Positions 15,165 through 46,498 of a DNA stretch of 47,658 nucleotides are shown here, in pieces. How positions within the stretch are numbered: position 1 is the first letter of the stretch; the number at the start of each line of letters is the position of its first letter. Under the pieces are notes generated by a model, which saw nothing but the letters and a program-made list of their open reading frames with translations, made no database searches and was not told the DNA's origin. The stretch is taken from the IMG/VR virus record IMGVR_UViG_3300031951_000280, positions 1 through 47,658 of that record; one strand, given 5' to 3'. The stretch is from a virus. The position numbers and the translations under genes are program-made.

Positions 15165-15246
15165 TAATCAGGACAGGACTTGAACCTGTAACCTATGGTT
15201 TGCTTCCCGAAGGTCCACCATCACGCTACCCTTGCGCCACCTGACC
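15165..15246 (-). tRNA. tRNA-like element 1 (atypical anticodon region)
   Basis: The minus strand forms a 7-bp acceptor stem (GGTCAGG/CCTGATT), a D arm (GCGC...GCGT with GGG in the loop) and a perfect T arm (ACAGG-TTCAAGT-CCTGT). The 3' CCA is not encoded. The anticodon stem ATGGT/ACCAT would enclose a loop of 17 bases instead of 7, so no anticodon can be assigned with confidence. It may be a tRNA with an inserted segment, a degenerate tRNA, or a tRNA mimic that uses processing enzymes. Confidence 0.6.
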
Positions 15247-15496: not shown

Positions 15497-15598
15497 CAGT
15501 CAGGACAGGATTCGAACCTATACGGGAACCGTTGTTAGACCTCAATTTATTCCCACCCCAGGTTATCGAGGCGCGTCTACCAATTTCGCCACCTGACT
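15497..15598 (-). tRNA. tRNA-like element 2 (leucine-type D arm)
   Basis: The acceptor stem AGTCAGG/CCTGACT is perfect. The D arm GGCGAAATTGGTAGACGC is the form seen in class II leucine tRNAs. The T arm is ATAGG-TTCGAAT-CCTGT. Two interior folds are possible: a four-pair anticodon stem CCTC/GGGG with an eight-base loop containing TAA plus a long variable arm (GGGAA/TTCCC), or a CCTCG/TGAGG stem with a 22-base loop. The 102-base length is abnormal. If functional it may be tRNA-Leu(UAA), but U33 is missing. CCA is not encoded. Confidence 0.6.
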
Positions 15599-15783: not shown

Positions 15784-15906
15784 TAGTCAGGACAGGATTC
15801 GAACCTGTACGGGGTCTGGAGTGTTCGGTACCTATAACCTAACTTTTTTATACTCCCTATTCCGAGGATGTTAGTCCCTCTGCGTCTACTTTTTCGCCAC
15901 CTGACT
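15784..15906 (-). tRNA. tRNA-like element 3 (oversized variable region)
   Basis: The acceptor (AGTCAGG/CCTGACT) and T arm (ACAGG-TTCGAAT-CCTGT) match element 4 exactly. The D arm is leucine-like (GGCG...GTAGACGC). A GAGGG-ACTAACA-TCCTC anticodon arm places TAA at positions 34-36, but C stands at position 33 where U is expected. The variable region is about 55 bases and contains GGAGT/ACTCC pairing, far beyond normal class II length. It may be a tRNA-Leu(UAA) derivative or a tRNA mimic. Confidence 0.6.
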
Positions 15907-17479: not shown

Positions 17480-17585
17480 AAAAATGAAAGCTCTCCCTTC
17501 CATGAGTCTTGTGCCTGGCGGACGAAAGAGCATTCGGCTATGCTTCGACGGTTTCAACTCCATGCAGTCGCTTATTCATTTTTTG

Positions 17586-17903
17586 TGGAGCCGCCGGGAT
17601 TCGAACCCGGGTCCAAACGATGTCCAAGATTTGTCTTTTTACAGGCTTATCGGATTTCATGTTTCCGCAAACAAGGCCCGACGTTACCGCCGGATATGTC
17701 CACCAGTCCGTTTTACGTTCGGACAAACGTTGTGAAAGCTTTTTTAACAGTCACTGCTCACGCAGCGGCTTTCTCACCGTACCACGCACCGCTTACTGCG
17801 GCCGGAGTAAAAGGAACTACTTTGTTGTCATTTCGACGTTTGCGTAAGGTCGCCACCTGCCTGAACTACTCTCTTCTTATCGCTGTCAAATCCTGTCGGC
17901 CCC
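17586..17903 (-). ncRNA. ssrA: Transfer-messenger RNA (tmRNA)
   Basis: The 5' GGGGCCG pairs with the 3' CGGCTCC as the tRNA-like acceptor. The 3' T arm GGGTTCGAATCCC and the 5' motif GACAGGATTTGACAGCG are typical tmRNA ends. CCA is not encoded. The length, 318 bases, is short. The mRNA-like part most likely runs in the frame NDNKVVPFTPAAVSG... ending YGEKAAA-stop; the UGA (17760-17758) lies in a GUGA loop of a CGCTGC/GCAGTG hairpin within a larger GTGAgAAAGC/GCTTTCAC stem, as expected for helix 5. A shorter frame, ANVEMTTK-stop, is a less likely alternative. tmRNA rescues stalled ribosomes with host SmpB. Confidence 0.9.
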
Positions 17904-31523: not shown

Positions 31524-31703
31524 GGTTTGTTGGGAACGGGGGATGTTTGCCCGCTCCCTTGTTAGCCGGGGTCTTTGAATACGTAGGTACCCACACTCAA
31601 AACCACAGATCAAATTTTCAAAACCGGTTCCGAAAAAAATTTTGGGGAAAATTTTGGGAGGTGAGTTCTCTGAAAGCCTTGCCGGAATGGAAAGTCCAGA
31701 AAA

Positions 31704-31767
31704 CGAAAAAGCCCCGGGCTGATTCAGGGCTAGTTCGGTTCACATACGATGGCCGTATATGTAGAGT
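31704..31767 (-). ncRNA. Probable small RNA with own promoter and terminator
   Basis: A consensus promoter (31774-31803) points leftward. About 6 bases after it a roughly 60-base transcript would begin, containing a stem ACATA.ACG/CGTATGT and ending in AGCCC/GGGCT (31710-31731) with TTTTT. No start codon with a sensible ORF lies inside. Promoter, one hairpin and terminator in 100 bases fit a small regulatory RNA. Confidence 0.6.
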
Positions 31768-31773
31768 GGGATA

Positions 31774-31803
31774 CAAATGTAATCAATATTTTTTGAAAGT
31801 CAA
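31774..31803 (-). promoter_or_regulatory. Bacteroidota-type promoter for the small RNA
   Basis: On the minus strand TTG (31803-31801) is followed after exactly 19 bases by TACATTTG (31781-31774), a full match to the host consensus. It is the best leftward promoter near the divide. Confidence 0.82.
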
Positions 31804-32112
31804 GTGTTGCTCGAGAAATTTTTTGGAGTATATTTGGCACTGCTTCCGATTCCAATCGATCCCCCTTGATGGCCAGTCAGGTAGTTAGAGGGGCAGAAGT
31901 CGGGTTCTACCGGTAACGTTTTACCTACATAGTTACTGGAAGTTGTCCCCGATAGGAGCAAAAACGGCAATAGTATAGTAGGGTGGGAGGGAATAAGGCT
32001 ACAGGCTGACAGAAATGCCCCCTCGAAGGCTCAAAACGGCACCTTACAAAATCTGTTGTGAAACCTCAAAAATCCCAAGGGGAGAGGTGTGCCCGAGAAG
32101 GAAAGAACATCG
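31804..32112. other. Non-coding stretch before the late unit
   Basis: No gene is supported here. The sequence between the small RNA promoter and the late promoter box contains no long ORF with plausible codons and no strong hairpin. It probably holds upstream control elements for the first late promoter. Confidence 0.5.
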
Positions 32113-32120
32113 TAGATTTG
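32113..32120 (+). promoter_or_regulatory. Late promoter box, four bases before the start codon
   Basis: TAGATTTG fits TAnnTTTG and is followed by CAAT and the ATG of the tail fibre gene. No TTG is present at the -33 distance, so a phage-modified or activator-assisted polymerase may be needed. The same four-base spacing recurs at 41076 and 43838. Confidence 0.6.
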
Positions 32121-32124
32121 CAAT

Positions 32125-33747
32125 ATGGCAAAATCGCTGAGCCTGAAAGATCTGATCGATCTGGATAAGTCGAACTTTAATGTCGATCGTCCGGATAACA
32201 TTCGGCACAATCAAATACTTACGGCTTACTCGAAGACATCACGTCCAAAAACGTTTGTGTTCAAGTACTTGACTGATTTGTTGGTTGCCGGTAGTAATGT
32301 AACTCTTGTTCAGAATTCGGATGGGACCCTGACAATAAACTCTTCAGGAGGCGGCGGAACGATCGGATTGAGTCTTCCACCGGCTTTTACAGTTGTGGGC
32401 AGTCCGGTTGTAGGATCAGGGACTTTTACGGTTACCGGAGCCGGCACTAGTGCACAATACATTGATGGGACTGGTAATCTGCAGACTTTTCCGACGGGTG
32501 GTACGGGTACGGTTACAAGTGTAAACTTGGCAGTACCGTCTATTTTCAGTCTTGCCGGAAATCCAATTAGCACATCAGGGACTATTACAATTGGGCTCAA
32601 TACACAGGCAGCCAATCTTGTGTTTGCAGGGCCTAGCTCAGGTAGTGCAGCAATCCCAACATTTCGAGCGCTGACTCTGGCTGATCTGACTGTGGTTACG
32701 GACCCGGGTGTAATTTCGGTGAGTACAGCGAATGCCCGGGAAGATAATTACACACCAGCTGGTTGGCCAGGAACTACGACTATTACAAAAGTCATACGGA
32801 TTACTCCGACCAATGCCAATAACATTGTGTCGATCGGGGGATTGACAAATGGGGTTGCCGGCCAAATGGTTACAATTGTCAATGCGGCAACTGATCAGCT
32901 GCTGATTATTGATCACGACTCTCCAACGAGTACTGCAGCTAACAGGTTCAGGCTACAACATCAAACTTCTTACTTCTTACTTCCTGGCCGGGACATCACG
33001 TTTTTGTACAACGGCACCAGGTGGAGTCAAATGTCTTATGGTAATTGGGGAGGTTTGGATGTGGTGGATCACTTTACTTCAGGTCCTCAGAACAGGGTAA
33101 GCCCTACTGTTGTATTCAGTACTACCTACATGTCTTGGATATCTTCCGGAGCTGCTTCCGGAATACAGAGTAGCGGTAACCTTGGAAACTTTGATCTGGG
33201 TGGTGTGCAGTTAAGCACCGGTTCAACTGTAACTGGTAATACAGTAGGGGGAATGGCAATCAGACATGGAAGTGGTAACAATGCTTTAAACTTGAATGGT
33301 CAATTCCCGATGGTTATGCTGGCCATTGTAGATGCCACCCCAACTCCAACTGCTTTGCAAGATGTAGTTTGTGGGGTAGGCCTTGAGAGTAACTCTGGAA
33401 GTTGGGTAGGGAATGGTTACATATGGAAAACTCCAGCATTTGCTACGTTTGCAAACGTGTGGGAAATTGACGTCATTAATACCGGTGGAGGATTGGCTGT
33501 AAACGTGGTAACTGCAGTAGCGACTACTACAAAACAGTATCTAGGGATCTGGAACCATGGCAATAATGGAAACGTGACGTTTTTCAGTTCTACTAACGGA
33601 ATTACATACTCTGCAGTTTACAGGTTTACAAGAGTATCAAACAACTTTGCCGGCTATCCTAAAATAAGGATAAGTAGTCTAGTTGGAACGACTCCAAAAA
33701 ACTGGACAGCTCACATGCTCGGAGTGTCACTAAATCAGAAGCGATGA
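32125..33747 (+). CDS. Tail fibre / receptor-binding protein candidate
   Basis: The 540-residue protein is rich in Gly, Thr, Ser and Asn and has many short beta-strand repeats (GTVTSVNL, SGTITIGL, PTFRALTLADL) typical of trimeric phage fibres. The N-terminal 60 residues are different and probably attach to the virion. The C-terminal third likely folds as a globular receptor-binding head. It is the first rightward late gene and overlaps the next gene by four bases. Confidence 0.82.
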   Translation: MAKSLSLKDLIDLDKSNFNVDRPDNIRHNQILTAYSKTSRPKTFVFKYLTDLLVAGSNVTLVQNSDGTLTINSSGGGGTIGLSLPPAFTVVGSPVVGSGTFTVTGAGTSAQYIDGTGNLQTFPTGGTGTVTSVNLAVPSIFSLAGNPISTSGTITIGLNTQAANLVFAGPSSGSAAIPTFRALTLADLTVVTDPGVISVSTANAREDNYTPAGWPGTTTITKVIRITPTNANNIVSIGGLTNGVAGQMVTIVNAATDQLLIIDHDSPTSTAANRFRLQHQTSYFLLPGRDITFLYNGTRWSQMSYGNWGGLDVVDHFTSGPQNRVSPTVVFSTTYMSWISSGAASGIQSSGNLGNFDLGGVQLSTGSTVTGNTVGGMAIRHGSGNNALNLNGQFPMVMLAIVDATPTPTALQDVVCGVGLESNSGSWVGNGYIWKTPAFATFANVWEIDVINTGGGLAVNVVTAVATTTKQYLGIWNHGNNGNVTFFSSTNGITYSAVYRFTRVSNNFAGYPKIRISSLVGTTPKNWTAHMLGVSLNQKR

Positions 33748-34031
33748 TCTACTACCAATTCAGAATAGCGTACACAAATCCATCTGGAATGCTGGCCAGA
33801 GTAACTCTTACCAGACAGGCCGAAAATGCTGATTTTACAGCCAGCGTCGAAGAAAGTAGGATTATAGCAAAGCAGCAAATAGTTATAAACGACGGAATCC
33901 TCCCTCCTGCTGCTGCCCGGGTCGAAACCACTACAACTCTTACGCTATCTCAGTATAACGCGATCATCAGAGGTCCTAACGAATTTGAGGTGGATTCAGA
34001 AATTCCGGTAGAAGAACCACCGATTGAATAA
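33744..34031 (+). CDS. Small protein coupled to the tail fibre gene
   Basis: The 95-residue product (MIYYQFRIAYTNPSGMLARV...) has an acidic proline-rich tail. It begins in an ATGA overlap with the fibre gene. It may be a fibre-associated or chaperone protein; no family was recognised. Confidence 0.72.
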   Translation: MIYYQFRIAYTNPSGMLARVTLTRQAENADFTASVEESRIIAKQQIVINDGILPPAAARVETTTTLTLSQYNAIIRGPNEFEVDSEIPVEEPPIE

Positions 34032-34051
34032 AATTGGCTACTTTAGCTGAA

Positions 34052-34062
34052 AACTATAACCC
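34052..34062 (+). promoter_or_regulatory. Shared 11-base element directly before the ATG
   Basis: AACTATAACCC abuts the ATG of the 356-residue gene. The same 11 bases occur at 45045-45055, 18 bases before the major capsid gene. It may be a late promoter box or translation enhancer for abundant proteins. Confidence 0.45.
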
Positions 34063-35133
34063 ATGACCCAAGTAGAAATCGAAAAAATCAAAAGCCTGTC
34101 AGGCCTTGAAACAGATGTTATCACTAAACTAGCCAATGTAGTAGTGCAGGAAATGCGCGTAAACTCGTTCGGTCTGCAGCCAGTGAGCAAACGCAATCAA
34201 ACCACTGGTCAGCTCGAGTTGCAGTACTACCGTGTGGTACGACAAAGCAAATATCAGCGTGCCGGAGATTATGCATTGAATTTCGTAGAAACCTATCAGC
34301 ACGAACGCAACTACGCCTACGTTGGAGAAAACCTGGAAACCGGAAAACTCGAATGGGTAAATCCGGAAGTGTCGTTTGCAATGACTACAAATGGCACTAC
34401 AAAAATCCACACTACTCCGGAAGGACGCATGTACGTATATTTCAGTCCGCAGCTGAGCAAATGGGTGTTCGAAATGCAAAGTCGTCCAGACAGCTACACG
34501 TTTCTCGTTCGTGAAGCCAACCCAAACTTTGACCCGACACGGCCGGTAAGCGCTTCAAACTCACGACAGATTACTGTCCGAAGAGAGTTCGCAGTTGAAG
34601 AGCTGGCAGCCATGGCCAAAGTCAGTGTCGAGACAATTTATCAGTGGGACACTGATTACTACTACGGTGTAGAGCGTGATCCGGAAACACACATCACAAG
34701 TATATTTCTCGAAATCTTCAATTCCGGAGATTCCCTCAACGTGTACGCCGGGCAGGTTTACATCAATGGAAAACCGTTCTCGGGAACAGGTTACGGAAAC
34801 TACGTCACTGCTGTGGGGAAAACTGGAAGTGATTATGTGGCACGTTGGAAGATGTACAACGATTGCACCAAAGAAACAGCAGTAAACGGAGGATCTGAAG
34901 CCGGAAATTATGGGCTTTGCGAACTCGTAGGGCCAATGCAGTCTGGTGATGAACAAAATCCACGGGTATTTGTTCCGCAGTACGACAGAGAATTCGCAAT
35001 TCTCGAATTGCAAATTGAAGAGCTGCCGGCACAGGGTAAAAACCTGATTTACCATGCCTACTTTGACATGAAGACCCGAACACTTTTGTTCGAGCCTGCT
35101 ATGCGGACTCCGGACAATGTAGTATTTTTGTAA
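34063..35133 (+). CDS. Probable structural protein, function unassigned
   Basis: The 356-residue protein (MTQVEIEKIKSLSGLETDVI...) has regular, GC-richer codon use like the capsid gene, which suggests high expression. It is beta-rich after a helical start. Leader similarity to the major capsid gene supports a virion role. It ends with a terminator (35176-35203). It may be a head decoration or tail protein. Confidence 0.75.
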   Translation: MTQVEIEKIKSLSGLETDVITKLANVVVQEMRVNSFGLQPVSKRNQTTGQLELQYYRVVRQSKYQRAGDYALNFVETYQHERNYAYVGENLETGKLEWVNPEVSFAMTTNGTTKIHTTPEGRMYVYFSPQLSKWVFEMQSRPDSYTFLVREANPNFDPTRPVSASNSRQITVRREFAVEELAAMAKVSVETIYQWDTDYYYGVERDPETHITSIFLEIFNSGDSLNVYAGQVYINGKPFSGTGYGNYVTAVGKTGSDYVARWKMYNDCTKETAVNGGSEAGNYGLCELVGPMQSGDEQNPRVFVPQYDREFAILELQIEELPAQGKNLIYHAYFDMKTRTLLFEPAMRTPDNVVFL

Positions 35134-35175
35134 CTGACTACTCATTCGAGTAGAATTTGGTTAAGGTTTAGTGAG

Positions 35176-35203
35176 GGGCCTCTTGCATACGAGCAGGAGG
35201 CCC
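35176..35203 (+). terminator. Terminator overlapping the next promoter
   Basis: GGGCCTC/GAGGCCC is a seven-base stem with a 14-base loop, followed by TTATATTTG. It ends the transcript of the 356-residue gene and lies within the promoter at 35183-35212. Confidence 0.85.
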
Positions 35204-35212
35204 TTATATTTG
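35183..35212 (+). promoter_or_regulatory. Bacteroidota-type promoter for the lysis genes
   Basis: TTG (35183-35185) is followed after 19 bases by TATATTTG (35205-35212), a full consensus match. It is immediately followed by GTACCAAACTCACTA, a 15-base sequence repeated at 41060-41074 before the portal gene. Confidence 0.85.
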
Positions 35213-35225
35213 TACCAAACTCACT

Positions 35226-35630
35226 ATGATGAAAATCAAATCCTTTTTCAAAAATCTAGCTTGGGCCGTGCTTCGCTGGCTGCAATTATGGGACGCTATC
35301 TGGACACTTCCCCTCATGATTGCCGCGATCGTGTGGATCAGCCGTTGGCTTGTAGAACAATACGGACCTGCAGTCGGGGTGTTTCCTCCAGGACTTCTCA
35401 ATGCCGGCCTTCTTGCTGCTTTTTACCTTTTGACTGGTACCACAGTAGTGAACATCATCATCTTTTTTGGACACCGCGGGTGGTTCAAAATTTACTACTC
35501 CCGTAAACTGAAAGATACTCGTAAGTACCTTCTTACACACTTACCACCATGGCTACAACTTCTATTCGTTCCATTGTATGGAGCCTTTTTGCTTGTGCTG
35601 TTCTGCTGCTTGGTTGCGGCCCTGATCTGA
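35226..35630 (+). CDS. Holin candidate (membrane protein, three transmembrane segments)
   Basis: The 134-residue product has hydrophobic segments near residues 27-44 (IWTLPLMIAAIVWISRWL), 56-80 and 113-133, with a basic loop between the second and third. Location directly before the endolysin gene, which it overlaps by 82 bases, supports a holin that would open the inner membrane. The overlap in another frame is compact packing. Confidence 0.72.
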   Translation: MMKIKSFFKNLAWAVLRWLQLWDAIWTLPLMIAAIVWISRWLVEQYGPAVGVFPPGLLNAGLLAAFYLLTGTTVVNIIIFFGHRGWFKIYYSRKLKDTRKYLLTHLPPWLQLLFVPLYGAFLLVLFCCLVAALI

Positions 35631-36196
35631 CGAGCATTGCTCCGACTGGAAAAACTCCGATATCTGAGCTTACAGCTGAGCCTCAGCCAATTGTAGTAGA
35701 AAAACCGGTCCAAAAACCAGTACAGAAGCCGGTAAATCGACGGGATCTGCTCCAAAAAATCTACACCTCTCAAATAGGTGTACGAGAAGCTACCGGGAAA
35801 AATGACGGCCCGGAAGTAGAAATGTACCTCAGAGCTACCAATCTTGGAAAAGGAAATCCGTGGTGCGCTGCCTATGTAAGATGGTGTCTGGATTCAGCCG
35901 GCGTAGAAAGTCGGGTTACAGCTTGGTCCCCGACTGCTTTTAACCGGCGCAATCCGGTATACGTCGATCGACAATGGATTCGAGAGGGGCGCCACGGAGA
36001 TGTTTTTACCCTATACTACCCAAAGCTTGAGCGGATAGGTCATACAGGTTTTGTAGACAAAATCTACAACGATGGCACTATGATGCAAGCTGTAGAAGGA
36101 AACACCGATGGAAAAAGCCGAGACGGTGACGGAGTTTACCTTACCTTTCGGCCGGTCAAAACCATTCACAACATAAGCTCCTGGATCTATGACTAA
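35549..36196 (+). CDS. Lipoprotein endolysin with CHAP / NlpC-P60-like domain
   Basis: The 215-residue protein starts with a signal peptide and lipobox ending LLLGC (Cys23). A proline- and valine-rich linker of repeated KPVQKP follows. The catalytic domain shows GNPWCAAYVRWCLDSAG (Cys106), RIGHTGFVD (His165) and VEGNT (near 183), the cysteine-histidine layout of CHAP-type peptidoglycan amidases/endopeptidases. A lipid-anchored endolysin is unusual compared with secreted or cytosolic ones. It would cut the cell wall at lysis. Confidence 0.85.
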   Translation: MATTSIRSIVWSLFACAVLLLGCGPDLTSIAPTGKTPISELTAEPQPIVVEKPVQKPVQKPVNRRDLLQKIYTSQIGVREATGKNDGPEVEMYLRATNLGKGNPWCAAYVRWCLDSAGVESRVTAWSPTAFNRRNPVYVDRQWIREGRHGDVFTLYYPKLERIGHTGFVDKIYNDGTMMQAVEGNTDGKSRDGDGVYLTFRPVKTIHNISSWIYD

Positions 36197-36551
36197 GAAC
36201 TGCATTATAGCTGTATTCTCAATCTTTCTACTAATGGGAGGAATTGCTATTTATCAAATCAGACAGCGCCACAAGGTCCAAAAAGTTCTAGAAACCTACC
36301 AGTCATACCCAACAGAATTGCTGCAGGAGTACGATCGAATTCAGGCAGAAAGAGATTCTCTCAAAAAAGAAGAGGAAAAGCTTATGCTTCAGATATCAAA
36401 ACTTGAAGAAGATATTGAGCTTTCTGACAAGAATATCAACAAACTTAAACGTAAACTCGATGAAGAACTTCGCCGCGCTGCTGGTATGTCTCCTGATGAG
36501 CGTCTCAGGGATGTCGCAGAAAGACTTTCCACGGTACCTAAAACTCCCTGA
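36189..36551 (+). CDS. Inner-membrane spanin candidate (Rz-like)
   Basis: The 120-residue product has one N-terminal transmembrane segment (IIAVFSIFLLMGGIAIYQI) and a long coiled coil (residues 45-100, with KKEEEKLMLQISKLEEDIEL). This is the topology of i-spanins. It overlaps the endolysin gene by 8 bases and contains the start of the next gene inside it. Confidence 0.72.
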   Translation: MTKNCIIAVFSIFLLMGGIAIYQIRQRHKVQKVLETYQSYPTELLQEYDRIQAERDSLKKEEEKLMLQISKLEEDIELSDKNINKLKRKLDEELRRAAGMSPDERLRDVAERLSTVPKTP

Positions 36552-36933
36552 CGGGACTACCGTAGTAGCATTCGACATGGAACAGCTGGAAGCTATCCAG
36601 CGAGTTCTCATTCTTTGGGATAACCTAGAGTTCAAGAACTACGAGCTTGAAAAAAAAGTGGCCAAGCAGGACACCTTAATTGCTGCTAAGGACAAGTTGA
36701 TCGATCGAAAAAATATTGACATTGCCAAGCTCGAGTATCAAGAACGAATCTCCAGCGGGCTGTATGAACAGTTCAAAGCACTGTATGAAGAACAAAAAGC
36801 AGAGACACAGAAATGGTCGGTAAAGTATAATAAAGAAGTAACGAAAAAGAAGTGGTGGCGCAGAGTAGCGATAATTGAAGCTGGAATAATCGGTATCGAA
36901 ACTGTAGTAATTACCTTACTTCTAAAGAGTTAG
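36460..36933 (+). CDS. Secreted coiled-coil protein nested with the spanin candidate
   Basis: The 157-residue form starts MKNFAALLVCLLMSVSGMSQ, a signal peptide, at an ATG inside the i-spanin gene (92-base overlap). An upstream start at 36403 lacks a signal peptide and is rejected. A coiled coil covers residues 40-125, and the C-terminus has a hydrophobic segment (IIEAGIIGIETVVITLLL). Nested position suggests an o-spanin partner, but a C-terminal membrane anchor and lack of lipobox differ from Rz1. Confidence 0.7.
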   Translation: MKNFAALLVCLLMSVSGMSQKDFPRYLKLPDGTTVVAFDMEQLEAIQRVLILWDNLEFKNYELEKKVAKQDTLIAAKDKLIDRKNIDIAKLEYQERISSGLYEQFKALYEEQKAETQKWSVKYNKEVTKKKWWRRVAIIEAGIIGIETVVITLLLKS

Positions 36934-36951
36934 AAAAATCTACTATTTCTC

Positions 36952-36981
36952 TTGACTTTATAAAAAGTCTTCTTACATTTG
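36952..36981 (+). promoter_or_regulatory. Bacteroidota-type promoter for the co-chaperonin gene
   Basis: TTG (36952-36954), 19 bases, then TACATTTG (36974-36981) match the host consensus fully. The ATG of the GroES-like gene follows at 37000. Confidence 0.88.
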
Positions 36982-36999
36982 ACATGCAAAACCATACAC

Positions 37000-37335
37000 A
37001 TGTCAAACGAAAAAGAACACGTTGGAGTTCAAGCTTCAGAATTCCCAGAATCTTATCTGACCACAATTGGATACATTCCTGATCCATATCATGTGGTTGT
37101 AGAGCACCCTGAAGAAAAAAAGACTGCTGCCGGCCTTGTAATTCCGGAGCACATCGTAGCACGACAGAGCAACGATTTGAAAGTAATGGCAGTTGGCCAG
37201 GATTCATATCCTCTTTACAAGCCTGGCGACACCGTAAAGGTGCATCCAAATGCAGAAGCGACAGTCATTATTATCGGAGAGCGAAAGTATGCCCAAATTC
37301 AGCGCTCTTACATTCTCGGTAAATACACAAGCTGA
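37000..37335 (+). CDS. GroES-like co-chaperonin
   Basis: The 111-residue protein matches the Cpn10 fold. YHVVVEHPEEKKTAAGLVIP near residue 26 includes the mobile loop (TAAGLVIP for TxGGIVLP), VMAVGQDSY with YKPGDTVKV near 70 follows, and VIIIGERKYAQI with YILGK ends the barrel. It likely works with host GroEL to fold capsid proteins, as T4 gp31 does. It has its own promoter. Confidence 0.88.
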   Translation: MSNEKEHVGVQASEFPESYLTTIGYIPDPYHVVVEHPEEKKTAAGLVIPEHIVARQSNDLKVMAVGQDSYPLYKPGDTVKVHPNAEATVIIIGERKYAQIQRSYILGKYTS

Positions 37336-37337
37336 TT

Positions 37338-37592
37338 ATGGATCCAATGACGATTCCGGGCACGGTTACTATTACCGTGCACGATTTTGACGCTTTACGA
37401 AAAACTGCAGTCGAAAAAGAGCTTAAAGAACAACGGCTGACTAAAAGCATCCAAGAAGTGGAAGTCTTCCTACGCTATATCAGCAATACAGTTGACATGC
37501 AGCGACACATCGAAATGTTCAACAATCAGTCCCAGTTCATCAAAATGGAGCTGGACAAAGAGAAAGGACTTCGTCTAATTCCTGCCAAATGA
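37338..37592 (+). CDS. Small protein of unknown function
   Basis: The 84-residue product (MDPMTIPGTVTITVHDFDAL...) has a short beta start, a coiled-coil-like middle and a lysine-rich end. It begins 2 bases after the co-chaperonin stop and overlaps the next gene by 4 bases. Confidence 0.7.
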   Translation: MDPMTIPGTVTITVHDFDALRKTAVEKELKEQRLTKSIQEVEVFLRYISNTVDMQRHIEMFNNQSQFIKMELDKEKGLRLIPAK

Positions 37593-37927
37593 GTGCAACA
37601 ATAACGGTCCGGGCGACGACCACATACAAGTACATCAAATTCTTCAACAGCTTTTTTGAGCTGACTGACATGGAAATTCGTGTGCTTGCCAAGCTCTACG
37701 ATCTCCGAGAAACCGTAAATTTGTGTTCCGCCACGAACAAACGGAGAGTTGCAGAAGCTTTGAAAATCAAAGATTTCAATACTCTTAACAATTACGTACG
37801 GATACTCAAACAGAAAAAAGCCATCTACAAAACAAAGGATGGCTATGAAATAACTGATCTGCTGAGACCTAAAAAAACGTTGGTCCGAATTGAAATTACA
37901 ACTCCCGAGAATGCTCCTGCTTCGTGA
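37589..37927 (+). CDS. Winged-helix DNA-binding protein
   Basis: The 112-residue protein has a clear winged-helix pattern: LTDMEIRVLAKLYDLRETVN, then NKRRVAEALKIKDFNTLNNY (recognition helix), then VRILKQKKAIYKTKDGYEI (wing). It probably regulates late transcription or helps DNA packaging, because it precedes the terminase genes. The last codons overlap the next small ORF. Confidence 0.8.
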   Translation: MSATITVRATTTYKYIKFFNSFFELTDMEIRVLAKLYDLRETVNLCSATNKRRVAEALKIKDFNTLNNYVRILKQKKAIYKTKDGYEITDLLRPKKTLVRIEITTPENAPAS

Positions 37928-38039
37928 AAATGCCGTATGCACAGTGCACCAATTGCAAAATGCGCTACTTGTAATACAACAAGACGGTTACGGTAGTGTA
38001 GAACAAATTGACTTACTTGAATTCTTGCCAAATGAATGA
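37911..38039 (+). CDS. Very small ORF bridging two genes
   Basis: A 42-residue reading frame (MLLLRENAVCTVHQLQNALL...) overlaps the winged-helix gene by 17 bases and the next gene by 8 bases. Continuity of overlaps suggests translation. The product looks amphipathic. Confidence 0.5.
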   Translation: MLLLRENAVCTVHQLQNALLVIQQDGYGSVEQIDLLEFLPNE

Positions 38040-38334
38040 CGAAACTCCAAAACTTCCTTCTTTTGCAACCATGGTCAAAAACTTCGTGAAGTCTTCTGTG
38101 GAATACATCGCAGAAGGCATGCCTGCGGTAAGCCCGGAAGTTTATAAAACCAGAATGGAAGCATGCCAAAAATGTGAACTTCGAATTGCAAAAGACGATC
38201 GATGCTCACTGTGTGGCTGCTATGTGTTTCATAAAGGACAATGGGCAACAGCAGATTGTCCTGACAATCCCTCAAGATGGAAAGTAGCAGAACTTGAACT
38301 CAAGAAAAAGTCCGACAATGTCACTGACCTCTGA
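38032..38334 (+). CDS. Zinc-ribbon protein of the packaging region
   Basis: The 100-residue form starts MNDETPKLPSFATMVKNFVK. It has CQKC near residue 45, then CSLCGC near 58 and DCPDNPSRW near 75, a zinc-binding layout common in small Bacteroidota phage proteins encoded beside terminase. It probably binds DNA or protein during packaging. Confidence 0.78.
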   Translation: MNDETPKLPSFATMVKNFVKSSVEYIAEGMPAVSPEVYKTRMEACQKCELRIAKDDRCSLCGCYVFHKGQWATADCPDNPSRWKVAELELKKKSDNVTDL

Positions 38335-38575
38335 TCAGAAAGCGCTGATTCAAAGAATTGCGACAAAATACAATCTCCCATTGAGAAAAATTGAGGAAAT
38401 TGTAATGTCGCAATTCAAATTTTCGGCCGAAAAAATTGCCAGTGGCGAGTTTAAGGCTATTCGATTGGCATATCTCGGAAAATTTTCGGCAAACCCAAAA
38501 CGATTGGAGCACCTAAGCGCCAAACGAAAGAAAAAAGAGGAAGAAAATGAAGAATCTGGTAGCTCTGGAGAATGA
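38318..38575 (+). CDS. Small IHF/HU-like protein candidate
   Basis: The 85-residue form (MSLTSDQKALIQRIATKYNL...) has a helical start, a segment EIVMSQFKFSAEKIASGEFK, then IRLAYLGKFSANPKR, and a basic tail. This resembles HU/IHF-domain proteins that crAss-like phages encode just before the terminase. Similarity is by memory of pattern only. Confidence 0.6.
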   Translation: MSLTSDQKALIQRIATKYNLPLRKIEEIVMSQFKFSAEKIASGEFKAIRLAYLGKFSANPKRLEHLSAKRKKKEEENEESGSSGE

Positions 38576-39047
38576 TAATGTAGTAATAAGTCCATATGCA
38601 AAGCTGATCTCAGAGTTTGCTAAGCTTTCTCCGAACGAACTCGGTTTCGTTTACTTTTTCTGCGATTACAGATCCCCGTATTCAGCGTACACAGAAGACG
38701 AGCGATTGAAAATATTACTCGAGGATTTCAAAATTAAGTCCGTTTCAAAGCAGTTGCAGGCTGCAATTGATAAATACAGGCAGCTTTCAGAAACTCACTC
38801 AATCCGACTGTTGGTGGCGGCCCGGGAATCAGTCAATAGATTGGAAGAATACCTTCGAGAAATTGATCTTACGCAGCTCAATGAACGTGGAACTCCTATT
38901 TTTACAGCCCGAGACCTTGTAGCAAACCTCACAAAACTCGGAGAAGTTGTGGAAGGCCTTCAAGCCCTTGAGGAACTTGTTCGAAAAGAAGCTACAATTG
39001 AGGGCCCAAACCGTGGGGGAGTAAAGGTCAATAAATTCAGTGAATGA
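38547..39047 (+). CDS. Packaging-region protein, small-terminase candidate
   Basis: The 166-residue protein (MKNLVALENDNVVISPYAKL...) is highly helical. It is encoded immediately before TerL with a four-base overlap, the usual place of the small terminase subunit. No HTH motif is obvious, so the role rests on position. Confidence 0.6.
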   Translation: MKNLVALENDNVVISPYAKLISEFAKLSPNELGFVYFFCDYRSPYSAYTEDERLKILLEDFKIKSVSKQLQAAIDKYRQLSETHSIRLLVAARESVNRLEEYLREIDLTQLNERGTPIFTARDLVANLTKLGEVVEGLQALEELVRKEATIEGPNRGGVKVNKFSE

Positions 39048-41056
39048 GTCTTCCGATTCTGACCAAATACAACTTTGTTGACACCCATCTTCTCAGTCCT
39101 GCCGCTGCGGCATTTAGAGAAATGGGTAAATACACCAAGGCAATTGAGGGAACAAAGCAGTATCTGGAATTCTGGGAAGAAGAGCAGCATAGATGCCTGC
39201 ATGGTTACACTGCAGCCGGCATAACCATTACCGGATACCACTATTTCTACCTCAACTACTGTCCGATTGCACTAGTTTCAGACGAAGAGCAGCCAGATGG
39301 CTCAATTGTGTCCACTCGTGAGTATGATTTTCCACGATTTTACGACGGAGACTGGGAATTTTTCCATGCAATTGACAAAGCTCGAAAAACGAACAAGCAC
39401 ATTGCAGTATTAAAGGCCCGCCGAAAAGGATATTCCTACAAAGCGGCTTCGATGATGGCCAGAAACTACTACCATCTGCGCAATTCCAGAAATTTTGTAG
39501 TAGCTGAGCAGAAAGAGTACCTTACGGGGGACGGTATTCTGTCAAAAACGTGGGAAATGCTCTCATTTAACGATGAGCACACGGCCTGGAGACAACCTCG
39601 AGTAAAAGACCGGGATCTTCACAAGCAAGCCGGCTACAAACGGAACATCAACGGCTCCGATGTAACCATGGGGTTCAAATCCCAGATTATAGGTCTGTCG
39701 CTAAAGGACAATCCCAACAAAATTCGTGGTAAAGCCGGTGAGCTGATGTTCTTTGAAGAAGCCGGATCTTTTACCGGGCTCTTAAAAGCATGGGAAATTG
39801 CCATGCCTACCATGAGGCAAGGTTCAAAAACACTTGGAACCATGATTGCTTTTGGTACCGGTGGTGAAGAAGGTCCTGGATTTGAAGGCCTTGAAGAACT
39901 GTTCTATCATCCGGAAGCTTATGACTGCATGGCATTTGAAAACGTGTGGGACCCGGGCGCCATGGGTACGGAATGTGGTTTCTTCGTGCCTATTACCAAA
40001 AATCTGGATGGATTCATAGACAAAAACGGTAATAGTCTCGAGGAATCGGCGATCGAGTACGAGGAAAGTCAACGAGAGAACAAGAAAAAAGCCGGTGATC
40101 CAAAATCATACGATCAGTACATTGCTGAACACCCATTCAATCCTCAAGAAGCAACTCTTCAGGTAACAGCCAACTACTTTGATGTCACGTCGCTAAAAGA
40201 ACAATACAACCGGGTAGTTGCCGGCAACCTGGATAAAATCGGTGTGGTTGGAGTACTATATCGGGACGTTTCCGGAAAAGTAAAGTTCCGGCCAGACTCT
40301 GAAGCACGTGCTATTAAAGCTTATCCTCACAGAAAAGGGGATAATCTTACGGGAGCCGTAGTAATATACGAACCTCCGTTCAAAGCCGACATAGATGACA
40401 ACGGGATAAAAGTTGGGATAACTCCGAAAAACCTGTACATCCTTGGACACGACCCGTACGCCCATGGTAAAACCAGCAACGAAATCTCTTTGGGTGCTGC
40501 GTACGTTCTCAAGGTCCCGAATAACCTCAGTAAACCCGATGATTTAATTGTGGCCTCATACGTAGGCCGGCCGGAAAACCAGGATGACTACAACTACACC
40601 CTGTTTATGCTGGCGGAATACTACAACGCCAAAATCGGATTTGAGAACGACCGCGGAGAAGTAATTCCGTACGCAAAACGTTTCAGGAAGCTGCATTTGC
40701 TGCAGGAAGAGTTCGAAATGCTGGACAAAAAAGACCTGCAAAGTAAAACTGTCAAGCGGCAGTACGGCATGCACATGACCGAACAACGAAAAGGCCAGGG
40801 TGAAATCTACATCCGGGACTGGTTGGTCTCAGGCCGCGGCGCCAATGAAGATGGGGAAATTACGCTAAACCTTCAGAAGATTTATGACACGGCATTGCTG
40901 CAGGAGCTGATCAAGTTTAACCGAAAGGGAAACTTTGACCGAGTCATGGCACTTATGATAGCCATGTATCACATCAGGGAACTTCACAACAAAGAGCTGA
41001 CTTTTGCAACAAAAGACAATAGCTCAAACGAATGGTTCGATAGAATCTATAAGTAA
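39044..41056 (+). CDS. terL: Terminase large subunit
   Basis: The 670-residue protein has the crAss-like N-terminal segment ITGYHYFYLNYCPI near residue 62, a divergent Walker A KARRKGYSYK near 124, Walker B LMFFEEAG near 234, and a nuclease domain with GHDPYAHGK near 465 and FENDRGEVI near 525. It packages phage DNA into the prohead and cuts concatemers. Length is typical of large-genome Bacteroidota podophages. Confidence 0.93.
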   Translation: MSLPILTKYNFVDTHLLSPAAAAFREMGKYTKAIEGTKQYLEFWEEEQHRCLHGYTAAGITITGYHYFYLNYCPIALVSDEEQPDGSIVSTREYDFPRFYDGDWEFFHAIDKARKTNKHIAVLKARRKGYSYKAASMMARNYYHLRNSRNFVVAEQKEYLTGDGILSKTWEMLSFNDEHTAWRQPRVKDRDLHKQAGYKRNINGSDVTMGFKSQIIGLSLKDNPNKIRGKAGELMFFEEAGSFTGLLKAWEIAMPTMRQGSKTLGTMIAFGTGGEEGPGFEGLEELFYHPEAYDCMAFENVWDPGAMGTECGFFVPITKNLDGFIDKNGNSLEESAIEYEESQRENKKKAGDPKSYDQYIAEHPFNPQEATLQVTANYFDVTSLKEQYNRVVAGNLDKIGVVGVLYRDVSGKVKFRPDSEARAIKAYPHRKGDNLTGAVVIYEPPFKADIDDNGIKVGITPKNLYILGHDPYAHGKTSNEISLGAAYVLKVPNNLSKPDDLIVASYVGRPENQDDYNYTLFMLAEYYNAKIGFENDRGEVIPYAKRFRKLHLLQEEFEMLDKKDLQSKTVKRQYGMHMTEQRKGQGEIYIRDWLVSGRGANEDGEITLNLQKIYDTALLQELIKFNRKGNFDRVMALMIAMYHIRELHNKELTFATKDNSSNEWFDRIYK

Positions 41057-41075
41057 AAAGTACCAAACTCACTAC

Positions 41076-41083
41076 TATCTTTG
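41076..41083 (+). promoter_or_regulatory. Late promoter box before the portal gene
   Basis: TATCTTTG is followed by TGCT and the portal ATG at 41088. The 15 bases GTACCAAACTCACTA directly before it (41060-41074) are identical to those at 35212-35226. No TTG at -33. Confidence 0.6.
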
Positions 41084-41087
41084 TGCT

Positions 41088-43304
41088 ATGGTCAACTTCA
41101 CACCACTCCCGAAACAACGAATTCCAGAGTCCCAAAAGACTGAAAGCTGGCATATTGAAAATGTCAAGGCCTTTATCAGCATGTCCAGATTCGGGACAAC
41201 TGATCGGAGATCCTATCTGAAATCTCTCTATGATTTCTACAACGGGATCATTGACGAAGAGGATTACGATTATGTACTTCGGCCGTATGGTAAAACCCGC
41301 AGCAACTTCCCTTCGAAGATGCGCAACTACCCAATCATAAAACCGATCATTGACCTTTTACTTGGGGAAAAATCAAAGCGCCCGCTCGAGTATACAGTCA
41401 CAGTTCAGAACAGTGACTCAATCAGTATCAAGGAGGAGCAGAAAAAAGCAAGGATTCTGGAGAACATCAAAGCCATGTTCATTAATGAACTTGCTGAACA
41501 GGGAGTTGTTGATGCACCAGAGCAGGAAGTCCAGATGCCAGATCAGCTCGTCAAAGAGTTTGATATGAGTTACGTAGACAATCGGGCAATTCGGGGCCAA
41601 GCTGCGTTGAACTATATAATGTACTTCAATGAGCTCTACGACAAACTCCAAAAGCAGTTTTTCCACTTCCTTACAGCCGGAGAAGTTTTCTCTGAAAAAG
41701 GTGTACGAAGAGGTGAAGTATTCTACGACATCATTAATCCAATGGACGTGGATTATGATAAGGATCCGGATGTGGAATTCATTGAAGACGGGGACTTTGC
41801 GCTTCGTAGAAGATTTGCTCACGCATCCTCTATCATTGATGCTTACGGGGACAAGCTGACAGCCGAGCAAGTGCTGGCACTGGAAACTCCGGAGCAAACT
41901 ACCTCTGATGTATTCTTGCTGTACAAGATGGAAAGTACTGGCCCGGATCCAAATCTGGCCCGGAACCGACTGACCGAAGTCATTACTGTTTATTGGAAAA
42001 CTCGGAAACGATATGCATTTTTGAAGTATACGGACCCTGCGACAGGCTCTGTTGAAGAAACAATCGTTCCGGAAAACTACAAGCTTACTCCGGAAAATGC
42101 CCAGTTAGGCGCTGTTCTCACATATGAATGGGGAAATGAAGTCCGACAGGGAACTCAAATCGATGGCAGATTTTACGTAGATCTCGGACCGGTACCAACT
42201 CAAAGAAAAAGCCTCGACAATCCATCACTTTGCAAGTTGCCTATCAACGGCCGCAAGTATTCGGATGTAAACTCCCAGAATATCTCATTGGTCAGCCTGG
42301 GAATTCCCTACCAGCTCAACTACAACATCTACAAGTATCGACTTGAGCTTGCCATTGCTCGAAGCAAAGACATCATTGCTCAGTTCGACATAAACATGAT
42401 TCCCAAAAACTGGGACATGGACAAATTCATGTACTTTGTAGAAGGTACCGGTATTGCATGGGTCGACTACAACAAAGAAGGTATCACTCTTTCTCCTCAG
42501 CACCAGTCAGTACTGGACATGTCAATCAAGACAATTTCTCAGTACTTGTCTCTGCTTGATTCAATTGTTCTCGAGTGGGAAAAAGTATCCGGAGTTACAC
42601 GTCAGCGCCAAGGCCAGATGGGTGTGCACGAAGGAAAGGCAACCAGTCAGCAGTCGATCGTCCAGTCATCTCACATCACAGAAGATATCTTCCGAAAGTT
42701 TTCTCACTTCGAACAACGGGAGCTTCAAGGCCTACTTGATTACTCAAAAGAGGCATGGCTGAACGGCAAAAAGTCTATGTACATTATGCCGGATGGAACC
42801 ACAAACTTTCTGGACATTGATTCCCTCATTTACTCTGAGTGTGAATTCGGGATCTTTGTATCTGACTCCGGTAAAGACATTGAACGCAAGGAAAAGCTTG
42901 AGGCGCTGTCGCAAGCAATGGTCCAAAATGGAGTACCAATTTCAACCATTGCTTCAATCTTCAAAAACGAAAGCTTTGCACAGATCGAGCAGAAGATCAA
43001 AGAAGTTGAGCGTGCACAGGCCGAGCTTGAAAAAGCTGTCGCTGAAGCTGAAAGAGCCAAGGCTGAAGAGCAGGCGGCAACTATAAAATATCAAACTGAT
43101 ATGCAGGCAGTTGACAAAGAAAAAGACCGGCAGCTTGCAATTGAACTTGCGCTTATCAAAGCAGAGTCAGACGAATCTTCGAATGCAGCTGACCTAAAGA
43201 AAGCAATGGAAGATCTCGAAGTGAAAAAAGAAGCGCTTGCTCTGAAAGAAAAAGAGATTACACTGAAGCACCAAGCTGCTATAACTGACAAAGGCACAGA
43301 ATGA
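41088..43304 (+). CDS. Portal protein
   Basis: The 738-residue protein follows TerL and is the portal by size and position: N-terminal clip/stem-like domain with YDFYNGIIDEEDYDYVLRPY near residue 45, a conserved IIKPIIDLLLGEKSKRPLEY segment, and a long C-terminal coiled coil from about residue 640 (QIEQKIKEVERAQAELEK). A frame starting 84 bases upstream overlaps TerL and is rejected. The coiled coil is longer than in classical portals. Confidence 0.88.
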   Translation: MVNFTPLPKQRIPESQKTESWHIENVKAFISMSRFGTTDRRSYLKSLYDFYNGIIDEEDYDYVLRPYGKTRSNFPSKMRNYPIIKPIIDLLLGEKSKRPLEYTVTVQNSDSISIKEEQKKARILENIKAMFINELAEQGVVDAPEQEVQMPDQLVKEFDMSYVDNRAIRGQAALNYIMYFNELYDKLQKQFFHFLTAGEVFSEKGVRRGEVFYDIINPMDVDYDKDPDVEFIEDGDFALRRRFAHASSIIDAYGDKLTAEQVLALETPEQTTSDVFLLYKMESTGPDPNLARNRLTEVITVYWKTRKRYAFLKYTDPATGSVEETIVPENYKLTPENAQLGAVLTYEWGNEVRQGTQIDGRFYVDLGPVPTQRKSLDNPSLCKLPINGRKYSDVNSQNISLVSLGIPYQLNYNIYKYRLELAIARSKDIIAQFDINMIPKNWDMDKFMYFVEGTGIAWVDYNKEGITLSPQHQSVLDMSIKTISQYLSLLDSIVLEWEKVSGVTRQRQGQMGVHEGKATSQQSIVQSSHITEDIFRKFSHFEQRELQGLLDYSKEAWLNGKKSMYIMPDGTTNFLDIDSLIYSECEFGIFVSDSGKDIERKEKLEALSQAMVQNGVPISTIASIFKNESFAQIEQKIKEVERAQAELEKAVAEAERAKAEEQAATIKYQTDMQAVDKEKDRQLAIELALIKAESDESSNAADLKKAMEDLEVKKEALALKEKEITLKHQAAITDKGTE

Positions 43305-43780
43305 CAAACGCAGAACGCAGAGAACTCCTCACTCGTGCCCGGGAATCAGGTTACCAGGGAAGCATCCTGGATGTTTTCTCTGCACACCGGCAAGGAGTAG
43401 ACATCCTGTCACAAAGCATGCCGGTGGCAACGACTCCTGAACAGCAACAAGCTGGCCTTATTCCGGCGCATCAAGCTGGAAACACTGGAGCATCCATGGT
43501 ATTTCCGGACCTGCCTCCAAATCAACCAATGACCACAGTCGGGTTGAAAGCTCCGATCGACATTACAAAAGTGGACGATCGTGGCAATGTTGTGGAGTCC
43601 TACAAATCAGTTCCTCCTGGAATTGTCAACCTTCCGACCGGCCCTAACCGCGGTACCGTAATTGAAACTCCAGCCAAAACTTTTCAAACCGGCGGAGTAG
43701 CAGAAAAAATTAAGCTGCGCCAACAAAATAAGCTTTCAAAATACTGCTACAGTTGTGGTGGATTTTGGCAAAAAATGTAA
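43301..43780 (+). CDS. Head-region protein between portal and scaffold
   Basis: The 159-residue product (MTNAERRELLTRARESGYQG...) has a short helical start and proline-rich middle, and ends KYCYSCGGFWQKM with a CxxC pair. It overlaps the portal stop by four bases. A position between portal and scaffold suggests a head-assembly role. Confidence 0.75.
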   Translation: MTNAERRELLTRARESGYQGSILDVFSAHRQGVDILSQSMPVATTPEQQQAGLIPAHQAGNTGASMVFPDLPPNQPMTTVGLKAPIDITKVDDRGNVVESYKSVPPGIVNLPTGPNRGTVIETPAKTFQTGGVAEKIKLRQQNKLSKYCYSCGGFWQKM

Positions 43781-43781
43781 T

Positions 43782-43816
43782 ACTGTAAAGCACGGTGTAA
43801 AAATTAACTTTACAGT
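43782..43816 (+). terminator. Hairpin after the head-region gene
   Basis: ACTGTAAAG/CTTTACAGT is a nine-base perfect stem with a 17-base loop. There is little U tract (GTAG follows), so it may be a processing or pausing hairpin rather than a strong terminator. The next promoter box begins 21 bases later. Confidence 0.5.
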
Positions 43817-43837
43817 GTAGAAAGAAAAACCCACAAA

Positions 43838-43845
43838 TACCTTTG
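43838..43845 (+). promoter_or_regulatory. Late promoter box before the scaffold gene
   Basis: TACCTTTG is followed by TAAC and the scaffold ATG, again four bases. No TTG stands at -33. Confidence 0.6.
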
Positions 43846-43849
43846 TAAC

Positions 43850-45031
43850 ATGCAATCCAAAAATGAAAACGACGACAAACTGAACCTCGAGGATATCTCG
43901 ATGGAGTCACTCTTGTCAGAAGAAGCCGGAGGCGGTGCCGGTGGACTTGACCCAATTGATCCTCCGGGAGGAAAGGAAAAACCAGCTGCTGGAAAAAACA
44001 ATCCTTCTCCCGCTCCAAAAGGAAACGAGGAGAAAGAAGAGGAAGAGGAAGAAGAAGAGGAAGAAGAAAATGATGATCCAGATGGCGATGATGAACCTGG
44101 TAACGGAAAACCGAAAGGAAAAACCGGCAAAGGTGCCGGAGACGGAGACGGTTCTGAAGACGACGGGGGTGAAGAGCCCATGGTCAAATCAATTGCTACA
44201 GCATTGGGATTTGATCTTGGTGAGCGCGAAGAAGAGTTCGAGGACACCGAACAAGGTCTGACAAAACTTACCCGGGAAATCGCAGTTACCATGGCCGAAA
44301 ATGAACTCGAAAGAATTTTCAGCCAACACCCATCGATTCAAAAACACCTCGACTACGTCCTTGCCGGGGGTGATCCGGATAAGTTCTTTCAAACGTTTGG
44401 TGGAACTCAAGATTACAGCAAGCTTGAACTGGCAAAAGAAGATGTTGCTGTTCAGCGCTCAATTGTAACTGAGTACTTCAAAGCAAAAGGTCATGATGAA
44501 GCCTTCATCAAAGACACCCTTACGGAGTACGAGGATACCGGAAAGCTTTTCGATAAAGCTGCCGTGATCCAAAAAGAGCTTGCTAAGCTTCAAGGAGAGC
44601 AACGTGAAAAGTTGCTCAAAGAACAGCAGGCTGAGCATCAGGCTAAAGTTGACAAAGAGCTGCAGTACTGGAATACAGTTCAGCAGACCCTGGCAACCAA
44701 GGAAGAGTTTGCAGGTTTGCAAATTCCTGCTAAGGAAAAGGCCTCGTTCTTTGAATTCATTGCAGTGAAAACTGCAAGTGGAAAAAGCAAACGGGATGAA
44801 GCACTTGCTAAAATTCCGGTAGAACAGCGCCTGGCACTGGACTACATTCTGTACAAAGGCCTTGATCTGAAAACTTTGGTGGAGACCAAAGCAGATACAA
44901 AGGCTGCAAGAACTCTCCGGTCAAAACTCAAGGATACCGCAGCCGTATCCGGAAAGCAAGCGCCGGTAGACAAAACAAAACGATTCGATCCACAACAAGT
45001 GGACAGCGCAACATTGTTCGGATTAGGTTAA
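43850..45031 (+). CDS. Scaffolding protein candidate
   Basis: The 393-residue protein has an acidic, low-complexity N-terminal third with a run of glutamates near residues 63-74 and many Gly/Asp/Lys. A helical, coiled-coil C-terminal half follows (KELAKLQGEQREKLLKEQQA). This is the composition of phage scaffolds, and the major capsid gene follows. It probably shapes the prohead and is then removed. Confidence 0.82.
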   Translation: MQSKNENDDKLNLEDISMESLLSEEAGGGAGGLDPIDPPGGKEKPAAGKNNPSPAPKGNEEKEEEEEEEEEEENDDPDGDDEPGNGKPKGKTGKGAGDGDGSEDDGGEEPMVKSIATALGFDLGEREEEFEDTEQGLTKLTREIAVTMAENELERIFSQHPSIQKHLDYVLAGGDPDKFFQTFGGTQDYSKLELAKEDVAVQRSIVTEYFKAKGHDEAFIKDTLTEYEDTGKLFDKAAVIQKELAKLQGEQREKLLKEQQAEHQAKVDKELQYWNTVQQTLATKEEFAGLQIPAKEKASFFEFIAVKTASGKSKRDEALAKIPVEQRLALDYILYKGLDLKTLVETKADTKAARTLRSKLKDTAAVSGKQAPVDKTKRFDPQQVDSATLFGLG

Positions 45032-45073: not shown

Positions 45074-46498
45074 ATGGCTCTTATGCAAGTTCTGAAGACG
45101 TTCTACAATGATCAGCAGATGACCGACACTAACTCGCTCGTCAACGCTCTCATGGATCGTCCCGCGGAGATCTCTCCGATCATCACGCATTTGGCCGGCC
45201 GTGAAGACAAAAAGTTTCCTCTCACTTTTCTCACAGAAGGTGTCGGAAACACAAAGTCCATCGATCGGTTCGAGTACGAGTACCGTGTGAAAACACACGA
45301 AATCAACGTACGTCCTGTAATTGCATCTTCCGGCACTGGTGCTGGTGGATCAGTTTTCACAGTGACGTTCCCTGACAAATGGTTCGTGTTTCCGTACACC
45401 CTGGTTTCTCAATCAGGTATTCTGGCACGTATCATGAATGAACCAGTTGCTGACGGCAACGGTTGGAAGTACACTCTGCGTCTGGTTTCTCCGGATGCAT
45501 CTGCACTCTCAGCTGGTGCCGGTGGTGATTTGGCAGACGGCGCCCTCTGGGGGCAGCTGTACGCTAACGTAGGTATCGACTTCTCACGTGGAAACGCGTC
45601 AAACTGGACCGCTCCCGGCCTGGTTCGTTCGAAGATCGGTACCATTCGTAAGTCTTATCACTTCTCCGGAAATGCCAAAGACTACGTTGCACAATTTGAA
45701 CTTCCTCTCAAGGACGGCTCAAAGACCAAGCTGTGGATGGACTACGAAGAGTACCGCCACATGCTCAAGTTCAAAGAAGAGTGTGAAATGTACTACTGGT
45801 ACGGCCAGAAAACTCACGATGCAAGTGGCACAACCACCATGCTCGATGAGAACGGTCAGCCAGTTGTATCTGGACCTGGTCTTCTCGAGCAGGTAATCAA
45901 CAAGGATACCTACTCAACTTTGACCACGAACAAAATTGAAGAAGTCGTAGGAGATCTGTTCTACGGTATGACCGACGCTACGGACAAGCAAATCACCCTG
46001 TACACTGGTACCGGTGGTGCACGTGAGTTCGACCGCGCTCTCAAGTCTTACTACGGAGCAAACGCCTTCCTGCAGACTGCTGATGCCAAGTTCATCACTG
46101 GTACCGGCCGCAACCTCGGACTCACTGGTTACTTCACAAGTTATGACCACGTTGACGGTCACCGTGTGAATGTCGTGAAAGTTCCGATGTTTGACCACGG
46201 TCCGGTTGCTCAAGCCTCCAAAAAGCATCCTTCTTCAGGCCTGCCTATGGAGTCTTACCGTATGGTGTTCGTTGACCAGTCGGCTTACGACGGTGAAAAC
46301 AACGTACAGATGATCAACAAGGCAAAACGTGAAATGCTCCGCTGGTGCGTTGCAGGTTCTGTGGTCCCACGTGGATTCACCGAATCTTCTACCCGTGCCA
46401 GTGACATCGACGGCGCGTCAGTTCACATGCTGAAGACTGCCGGTATCTTGCTCCGCCGCTTTGATACCAGCCTTGACCTCCAGTGTGTTGCTTCGTGA
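45074..46498 (+). CDS. Major capsid protein
   Basis: The 474-residue protein (MALMQVLKTFYNDQQMTDTN...) follows the scaffold and has no recognised enzyme motif. Length, strong and uniform codon use, and a terminator right behind the gene fit the major head protein of an HK97-type capsid. It is probably the most abundant phage protein. Confidence 0.87.
   Translation: MALMQVLKTFYNDQQMTDTNSLVNALMDRPAEISPIITHLAGREDKKFPLTFLTEGVGNTKSIDRFEYEYRVKTHEINVRPVIASSGTGAGGSVFTVTFPDKWFVFPYTLVSQSGILARIMNEPVADGNGWKYTLRLVSPDASALSAGAGGDLADGALWGQLYANVGIDFSRGNASNWTAPGLVRSKIGTIRKSYHFSGNAKDYVAQFELPLKDGSKTKLWMDYEEYRHMLKFKEECEMYYWYGQKTHDASGTTTMLDENGQPVVSGPGLLEQVINKDTYSTLTTNKIEEVVGDLFYGMTDATDKQITLYTGTGGAREFDRALKSYYGANAFLQTADAKFITGTGRNLGLTGYFTSYDHVDGHRVNVVKVPMFDHGPVAQASKKHPSSGLPMESYRMVFVDQSAYDGENNVQMINKAKREMLRWCVAGSVVPRGFTESSTRASDIDGASVHMLKTAGILLRRFDTSLDLQCVAS

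Follow-up and report, generated by a model that had tools for sequence, protein, structure and literature searches.

The window analysed here, the whole stretch of 47,658 bp, is a fragment of a crAss-like phage, as judged by the homology of its terminase, portal and head protein genes (Table 1). The gene that lies between those for portal and major head protein is called the scaffold gene here from its position only. An ORF beginning at 41004 opens with TTG, and homology supports the ATG at 41088 as the start of the portal gene. The replication arm, which includes DNA polymerase A, a DnaB-like helicase and a 5'-3' exonuclease, is transcribed in the opposite direction. An Rfam search of the window returned tmRNA and tRNA and nothing else. 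The tmRNA is phage-encoded (17583-17903, minus strand; RF00023, 83.6 bits; ARAGORN tag GAWYGEKAAA), which is unusual in a phage, and two tRNAs found by Rfam (15165-15246 and 15497-15598, both on the minus strand) were not reported by ARAGORN. In addition, ggttcgaatcctgtcctgact at 15785 and 17045 resembles tRNA 3' ends and lies close upstream of small ORFs, and a AAAATTTTGGG tandem repeat with a period of 12 bp (31636-31658) occupies intergenic DNA ahead of a fibre-like gene.

Table 1. Features of the window discussed in the text
Feature	Position	Strand	Remarks
Distal-like AGTGGGATACAAATG	31765-31779	+	N49 before box 31829; weak; overlaps divergent minus-strand box; without A-tract
Canonical box TATATTTG	31829-31836	+	TTG 31807-31809 (N19); about 285 bp upstream of 32125 gene
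Box TAGATTTG	32113-32120	+	Gap of 4 nt to ATG 32125
Winged-helix-type protein, 112 aa	37589-37927	+	Kept in 8/9 relatives
HU-like protein, 85 aa	38318-38575	+	Below Pfam cut-off; kept in 9/9 relatives
Large terminase	39044-41056		
Portal box TATCTTTG (predicted -7 element)	41076-41083	+	Gap of 4 nt to ATG 41088; distal element absent
Portal protein	41088-43304	+	PHROG 6547, E 1.3e-109
Distal element AATGTAATACTGTAA	43774-43788	+	9/11 constrained bases of AGTGNNATANNATAA, 2 mismatches; N49 before box
A-tract and inverted repeat TGTAAA-AATTAAC-TTTACA	43796-43814	+	Centre 32.5 bp before box, as in relatives
Scaffold-position gene box TACCTTTG (predicted -7 element)	43838-43845	+	Gap of 4 nt to ATG 43850
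Gene between portal and major head protein	43850-45031	+	Annotated order in phi14:2 and others
Major head protein	45074-46498		

TAnnTTTG is the -7 box of the primary sigma factor of Bacteroidota. A preliminary description of the window had pointed to three copies, at 32113, 41076 and 43838, each ending exactly 4 nt before an ATG, and all three are indeed placed in this way. As a plain octamer it shows no enrichment in the window (30 occurrences against about 40 expected), and this would suit the explanation that a common AT-rich octamer has fallen at these positions by chance. It is the placement that is non-random. When the gene map was shifted over the sequence, none of 47,258 shifts gave three starts sharing one gap. 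Together with near-universal conservation at two of the genes (see below), this makes chance scarcely credible as a general explanation and refutes it for the boxes at 41076 and 43838. For 32113, which does fit chance, it is the likely explanation. The boxes at 41076 and 43838 also match TAHHTTTG, and 32113 has a G at the third base.

The three boxes were also said to have no TTG at -33, and this is borne out: TTG is absent at spacers of 17-22 before all three, and the -33 TTG/TTTG about 19 bp upstream that would mark a sigma-ABfr-type promoter is found at none of the sites. Six other boxes in the window do have TTG-N19/20-TAnnTTTG (31829, 35205 and 36974 on the plus strand; 31781, 16362 and 16443 on the minus strand), and these are promoters with longer leaders or intergenic DNA. 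Because of these six, the phage appears to use canonical host promoters as well. At 35174-35212 on the plus strand a strong terminator hairpin overlaps a canonical promoter. Its 5' arm contains the -33 TTG and its U-tract is the -7 box TATATTTG, which would place termination and re-initiation on the same bases. An identical 15-mer, GTACCAAACTCACTA, at 35212 and 41060 was considered and set aside, as its recurrence is roughly the chance expectation.

Are the boxes kept in relatives? Loci were fetched by portal homology (80) and by head-protein homology (80). TAnnTTTG stands 5-6 nt before the portal ATG in 44 of 46 distinct upstream regions, with TAnnTTTA-like remnants in the remaining two, and 4-5 nt before the ATG of the scaffold-position gene, located in relatives only by its adjacency to the head-protein (capsid) gene, in 59 of 59 distinct relatives; the loci share descent, so these counts are not independent. 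No box precedes the starts of the head-protein, terminase or neighbouring genes in the relatives compared. On this comparison of sequences, the boxes at the portal and scaffold genes are conserved elements, and their gap to the ATG has been kept over deep divergence.

The same spacing was looked for in nine near-complete relatives. The gaps from TAnnTTTG to the next ORF peak at 4-5 nt (41 sites), and seven control octamers show no peak there. Portal and scaffold are joined in this by a family of 87-aa proteins, by two giant late genes and by a small number of other genes, and the distal element described below is absent from these other boxed late genes of the relatives. The 87-aa family (MAAWQNKxGKNPKGGLNxKGR) has the box 4-5 nt before its ATG in 6/9 relatives, with only about 20 bp of intergenic DNA; its members include genes at 41880 (minus strand) in G003, 51171 (minus strand) in G001 and 57937 (plus strand) in G010, and their orthologs. 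Among cultured phages, Cellulophaga phage phi14:2 (portal box TATATTTG, gap of 6) and Fpv1 (scaffold gap of 7) come near the pattern.

What would such a gap mean for the mRNA? In F. johnsoniae the measured spacing between box and transcription start is 4-5 nt (PMC6847099). The gap between box and AUG matches this spacing, being 4 nt in the window and 4-5 nt (scaffold) or 5-6 nt (portal) in relatives, and on the F. johnsoniae value the mRNAs are predicted to begin 0-2 nt from the AUG. The earlier proposal of leaderless or nearly leaderless mRNAs is thus well supported for portal and scaffold, as a prediction that borrows its spacing from F. johnsoniae, which may not be the host. It does not extend to 32113, where the canonical promoter at 31829 is the likelier source of the transcript. 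If true, leaderless mRNAs would be used here with unusual consistency, although the phylum as a whole has few of them: they make up 5.5% in F. psychrophilum (PMC9723704), and leaders under 10 nt make up 3.7% in B. thetaiotaomicron (PMC7366714).

The box at 32113 is a different matter. A G at the third base is found in 0 of 59 scaffold-gene boxes and 0 of 37 deduplicated bipartite promoters of relatives, and hardly ever occurs in the -7 boxes of F. johnsoniae (PMC6847099). The TAG within TAGATTTG is an in-frame stop ahead of the 32125 gene. No box precedes this gene in the relatives compared and no distal element was found at 32113. With its disfavoured G, without conservation and with a canonical promoter lying 285 bp further upstream, the box at 32113 is most likely a non-functional coincidence, and the 32125 gene probably depends on that promoter, at 31829. 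The surrounding strand switch (31774-31836) holds back-to-back divergent canonical promoters about 25 bp apart, with TTG-N19 on each strand.

Alignment of the relatives' promoters reveals a second component, a distal element (AGTGNNATANNATAA) that lies 48 or 49 bp before the box at the scaffold genes and most portal genes. A PWM was made from the portal and scaffold promoters of relatives, and its 12 best matches across the nine genomes and the window lie only at portal and scaffold promoters and start 63-64 bp before the box. A blind scan with the spacing left free (N36-62) covered viral contigs and bacterial genomes. Among the matches listed for viral contigs, 102 are distinct and 63 of these have N48 or N49, which is the sole peak, and those of the listed viral matches with a called downstream gene belong to crAss-like portal or scaffold genes. 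In bacterial genomes the spacing is flat, with 2-8 per value among the matches listed.

At scaffold promoters the distal element has the same offset in 59/59 relatives and an A-tract is present in 59/59, and in 37 deduplicated promoters the A-tract always occupies +25 to +28, counted from where the element starts. TTG occurs at N19 once among those 37, and at N17-21 in 3/59 scaffold promoters. Of the 95,286 positions scored with the PWM, the copy ahead of the scaffold gene in the window ranks among the top 5. Because the window's portal promoter and those of some relatives are without AGTGNNATANNATAA, the element appears not to be obligatory. In other crAss-like families (phi14:2, crAss001-like, crAss002, Carjivirus, Fpv1 and others) no right-spaced match to AGTGNNATANNATAA was found near portal or scaffold genes. 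The scaffold promoters of the near-leaderless group also contain an inverted repeat, with its centre 32.5 bp before the box, which may be no more than an A-tract and a T-tract opposite each other.

Perhaps the box is a translation signal placed by the start codon, and not a promoter element at all. The distance between box and ATG is conserved in most relatives, as this idea would have it. However, TAnnTTTG is a known -7 consensus with no complementarity to the anti-Shine-Dalgarno sequence, and in one subclade (L212, L222, L216, L247 and similar) the leaders are 15-28 nt long rather than 4-7 and the 48/49 bp between distal element and box are still kept. This argues for transcription rather than translation, and makes a translation signal highly improbable. 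A role for the box in transcription is suggested both by its match to the host -7 consensus and by the behaviour of the upstream stop codon, whose distance from the box ranges over 29-87 bp while the spacing between distal element and box stays fixed. Two further ideas were rejected. One is coding constraint as the source of the distal element, which in some relatives falls within the upstream gene and in others beyond it. The other is that the inverted repeat forms a conserved RNA hairpin, which is not supported, as RNAalifold found no consensus structure.

It had been proposed that, with no TTG at -33, a phage factor may replace region-4 contacts. The one does not imply the other, as the lack of this TTG is common in Flavobacterium, whose promoters generally have a weak -33 motif and more prominent AT-rich ones (PMC6847099). 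A phage factor is nevertheless plausible, because the distal element is conserved at a fixed spacing and not because the -33 TTG is missing. Its position would make it a site of the upstream activator type and not a replacement for region-4 contacts.

What if no phage factor is involved? These could be ordinary host sigma-A promoters with short leaders, for which AT-rich DNA upstream would be enough, the distal element being an UP-like site for the alpha subunit of the polymerase. In favour of this idea are the weak -33 motif and prominent AT-rich motifs of Flavobacterium promoters (PMC6847099) and an A-tract at about -50 inside the conserved upstream block. However, an UP element is far less specific than AGTGNNATANNATAA, which keeps a fixed distance of 48/49 bp, and the same phage uses TTG-N19 at other promoters. 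This explanation is unlikely, if still a serious one. Another idea is that the distal element is the promoter of a phage-encoded RNA polymerase and TAnnTTTG a second, partly redundant start. The element is AT-rich and promoter-sized, and crAss-like phages do have a polymerase of their own, which is active on early genes (PMC10136315). What does not fit is that late head genes are the only ones at which the distal element is found. Moreover, two independent promoters would not be expected to keep 48/49 bp between this element and a sigma-A box, and the idea is very doubtful.

The explanation that we favour, and regard as probable, is that host sigma-A RNA polymerase is drawn to late promoters lacking the -33 element by a putative activator at the distal site, which would give leaderless or near-leaderless mRNAs. 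The portal and scaffold boxes would be -7 elements read by RNA polymerase with the host primary sigma factor (sigma-ABfr type), and transcription would start 4-5 nt past the box, on the A of the ATG or beside it. At the scaffold genes and most portal genes of the clade, a DNA-binding protein of the phage or the host would occupy AGTGNNATANNATAA at about -76 to -62, with the A-tract near -50, and would help to recruit the polymerase late in infection. Late transcription in crAss-like phages is believed to rely on the host RNA polymerase (PMC10136315, PMC8375218). A more specific proposal is a reasonable possibility rather than a probable one: that one large crAss-like clade has a class of late promoter not described before, at which a phage activator on AGTGNNATANNATAA and the A-tract (about -76 to -47) brings host sigma-A RNA polymerase to a -7 box without a -33 element, leading to leaderless head-gene mRNAs.

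Which protein might bind the distal element? Pfam scans of the window proteins revealed no clear transcription factor, and neither a sigma domain nor an Ogr-like protein was found among the proteins scanned. One candidate DNA-binding activator is the protein at 37589, for which AlphaFold2 predicts a winged-helix-like fold (pLDDT 91); its best PDB match is the activation domain of T4 MotA, although the match is weak (E 0.12). The HU-like protein at 38318 is a second candidate and might act as a DNA-bending factor. Fold and conservation are what suggest the two proteins, and the distal element provides a handle for finding the activator. For the late-gene switch of crAss-like phages host RNA polymerase is assumed, and a conserved bipartite signal with exact spacing makes the switch testable. 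The signal could also mark this clade when late genes of metagenomic phages are annotated. In the literature searched, no report of crAss promoter motifs or promoter signals was found.

Several known systems share parts of this arrangement. T4 late promoters consist of a TATAAATA box used with a phage sigma-like protein. The likeness is that a late promoter is reduced to one core box, but here that box is the host -7 consensus TAnnTTTG and not TATAAATA read by a phage sigma. At the late promoters of P2 and 186 the -35 is weak, and the phage zinc-finger activator Ogr/B has a conserved site upstream; the weak -35/-33 and the upstream site are alike, whereas the sequence and position of the site differ. 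Bacteroidota sigma-ABfr promoters (-33 TTTG / -7 TAnnTTTG) have the same -7 box, with the start predicted 4-5 nt downstream. Unlike them, the promoters described here have no -33 TTG, place the box at the start codon and, at scaffold and most portal genes, have a distal element 48/49 bp upstream. At the A3 promoter of phi29 the phage protein p4 stabilises host RNA polymerase where the -35 is poor, and this too is a late promoter with a conserved AT-rich site well upstream (PMC3100819). However, the host, the box and the sequence of the site are different, the activators here are only candidates and no early promoters were seen embedded at the site. Of the marks of activator-dependent promoters of the phi29 A3/P2 type, the poor -35/-33 is present here, and the fixed upstream site is present at the scaffold promoter but not at the window's portal promoter. 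Finally, leaderless (TA-led) bacterial genes are alike in that about 10-12 bp separate their promoter box from the start codon downstream (PMC3160421). What differs is that the predicted leaderless state is near-universal for two head genes here, as against 3.7-5.5% in Bacteroides and Flavobacterium (PMC7366714, PMC9723704).
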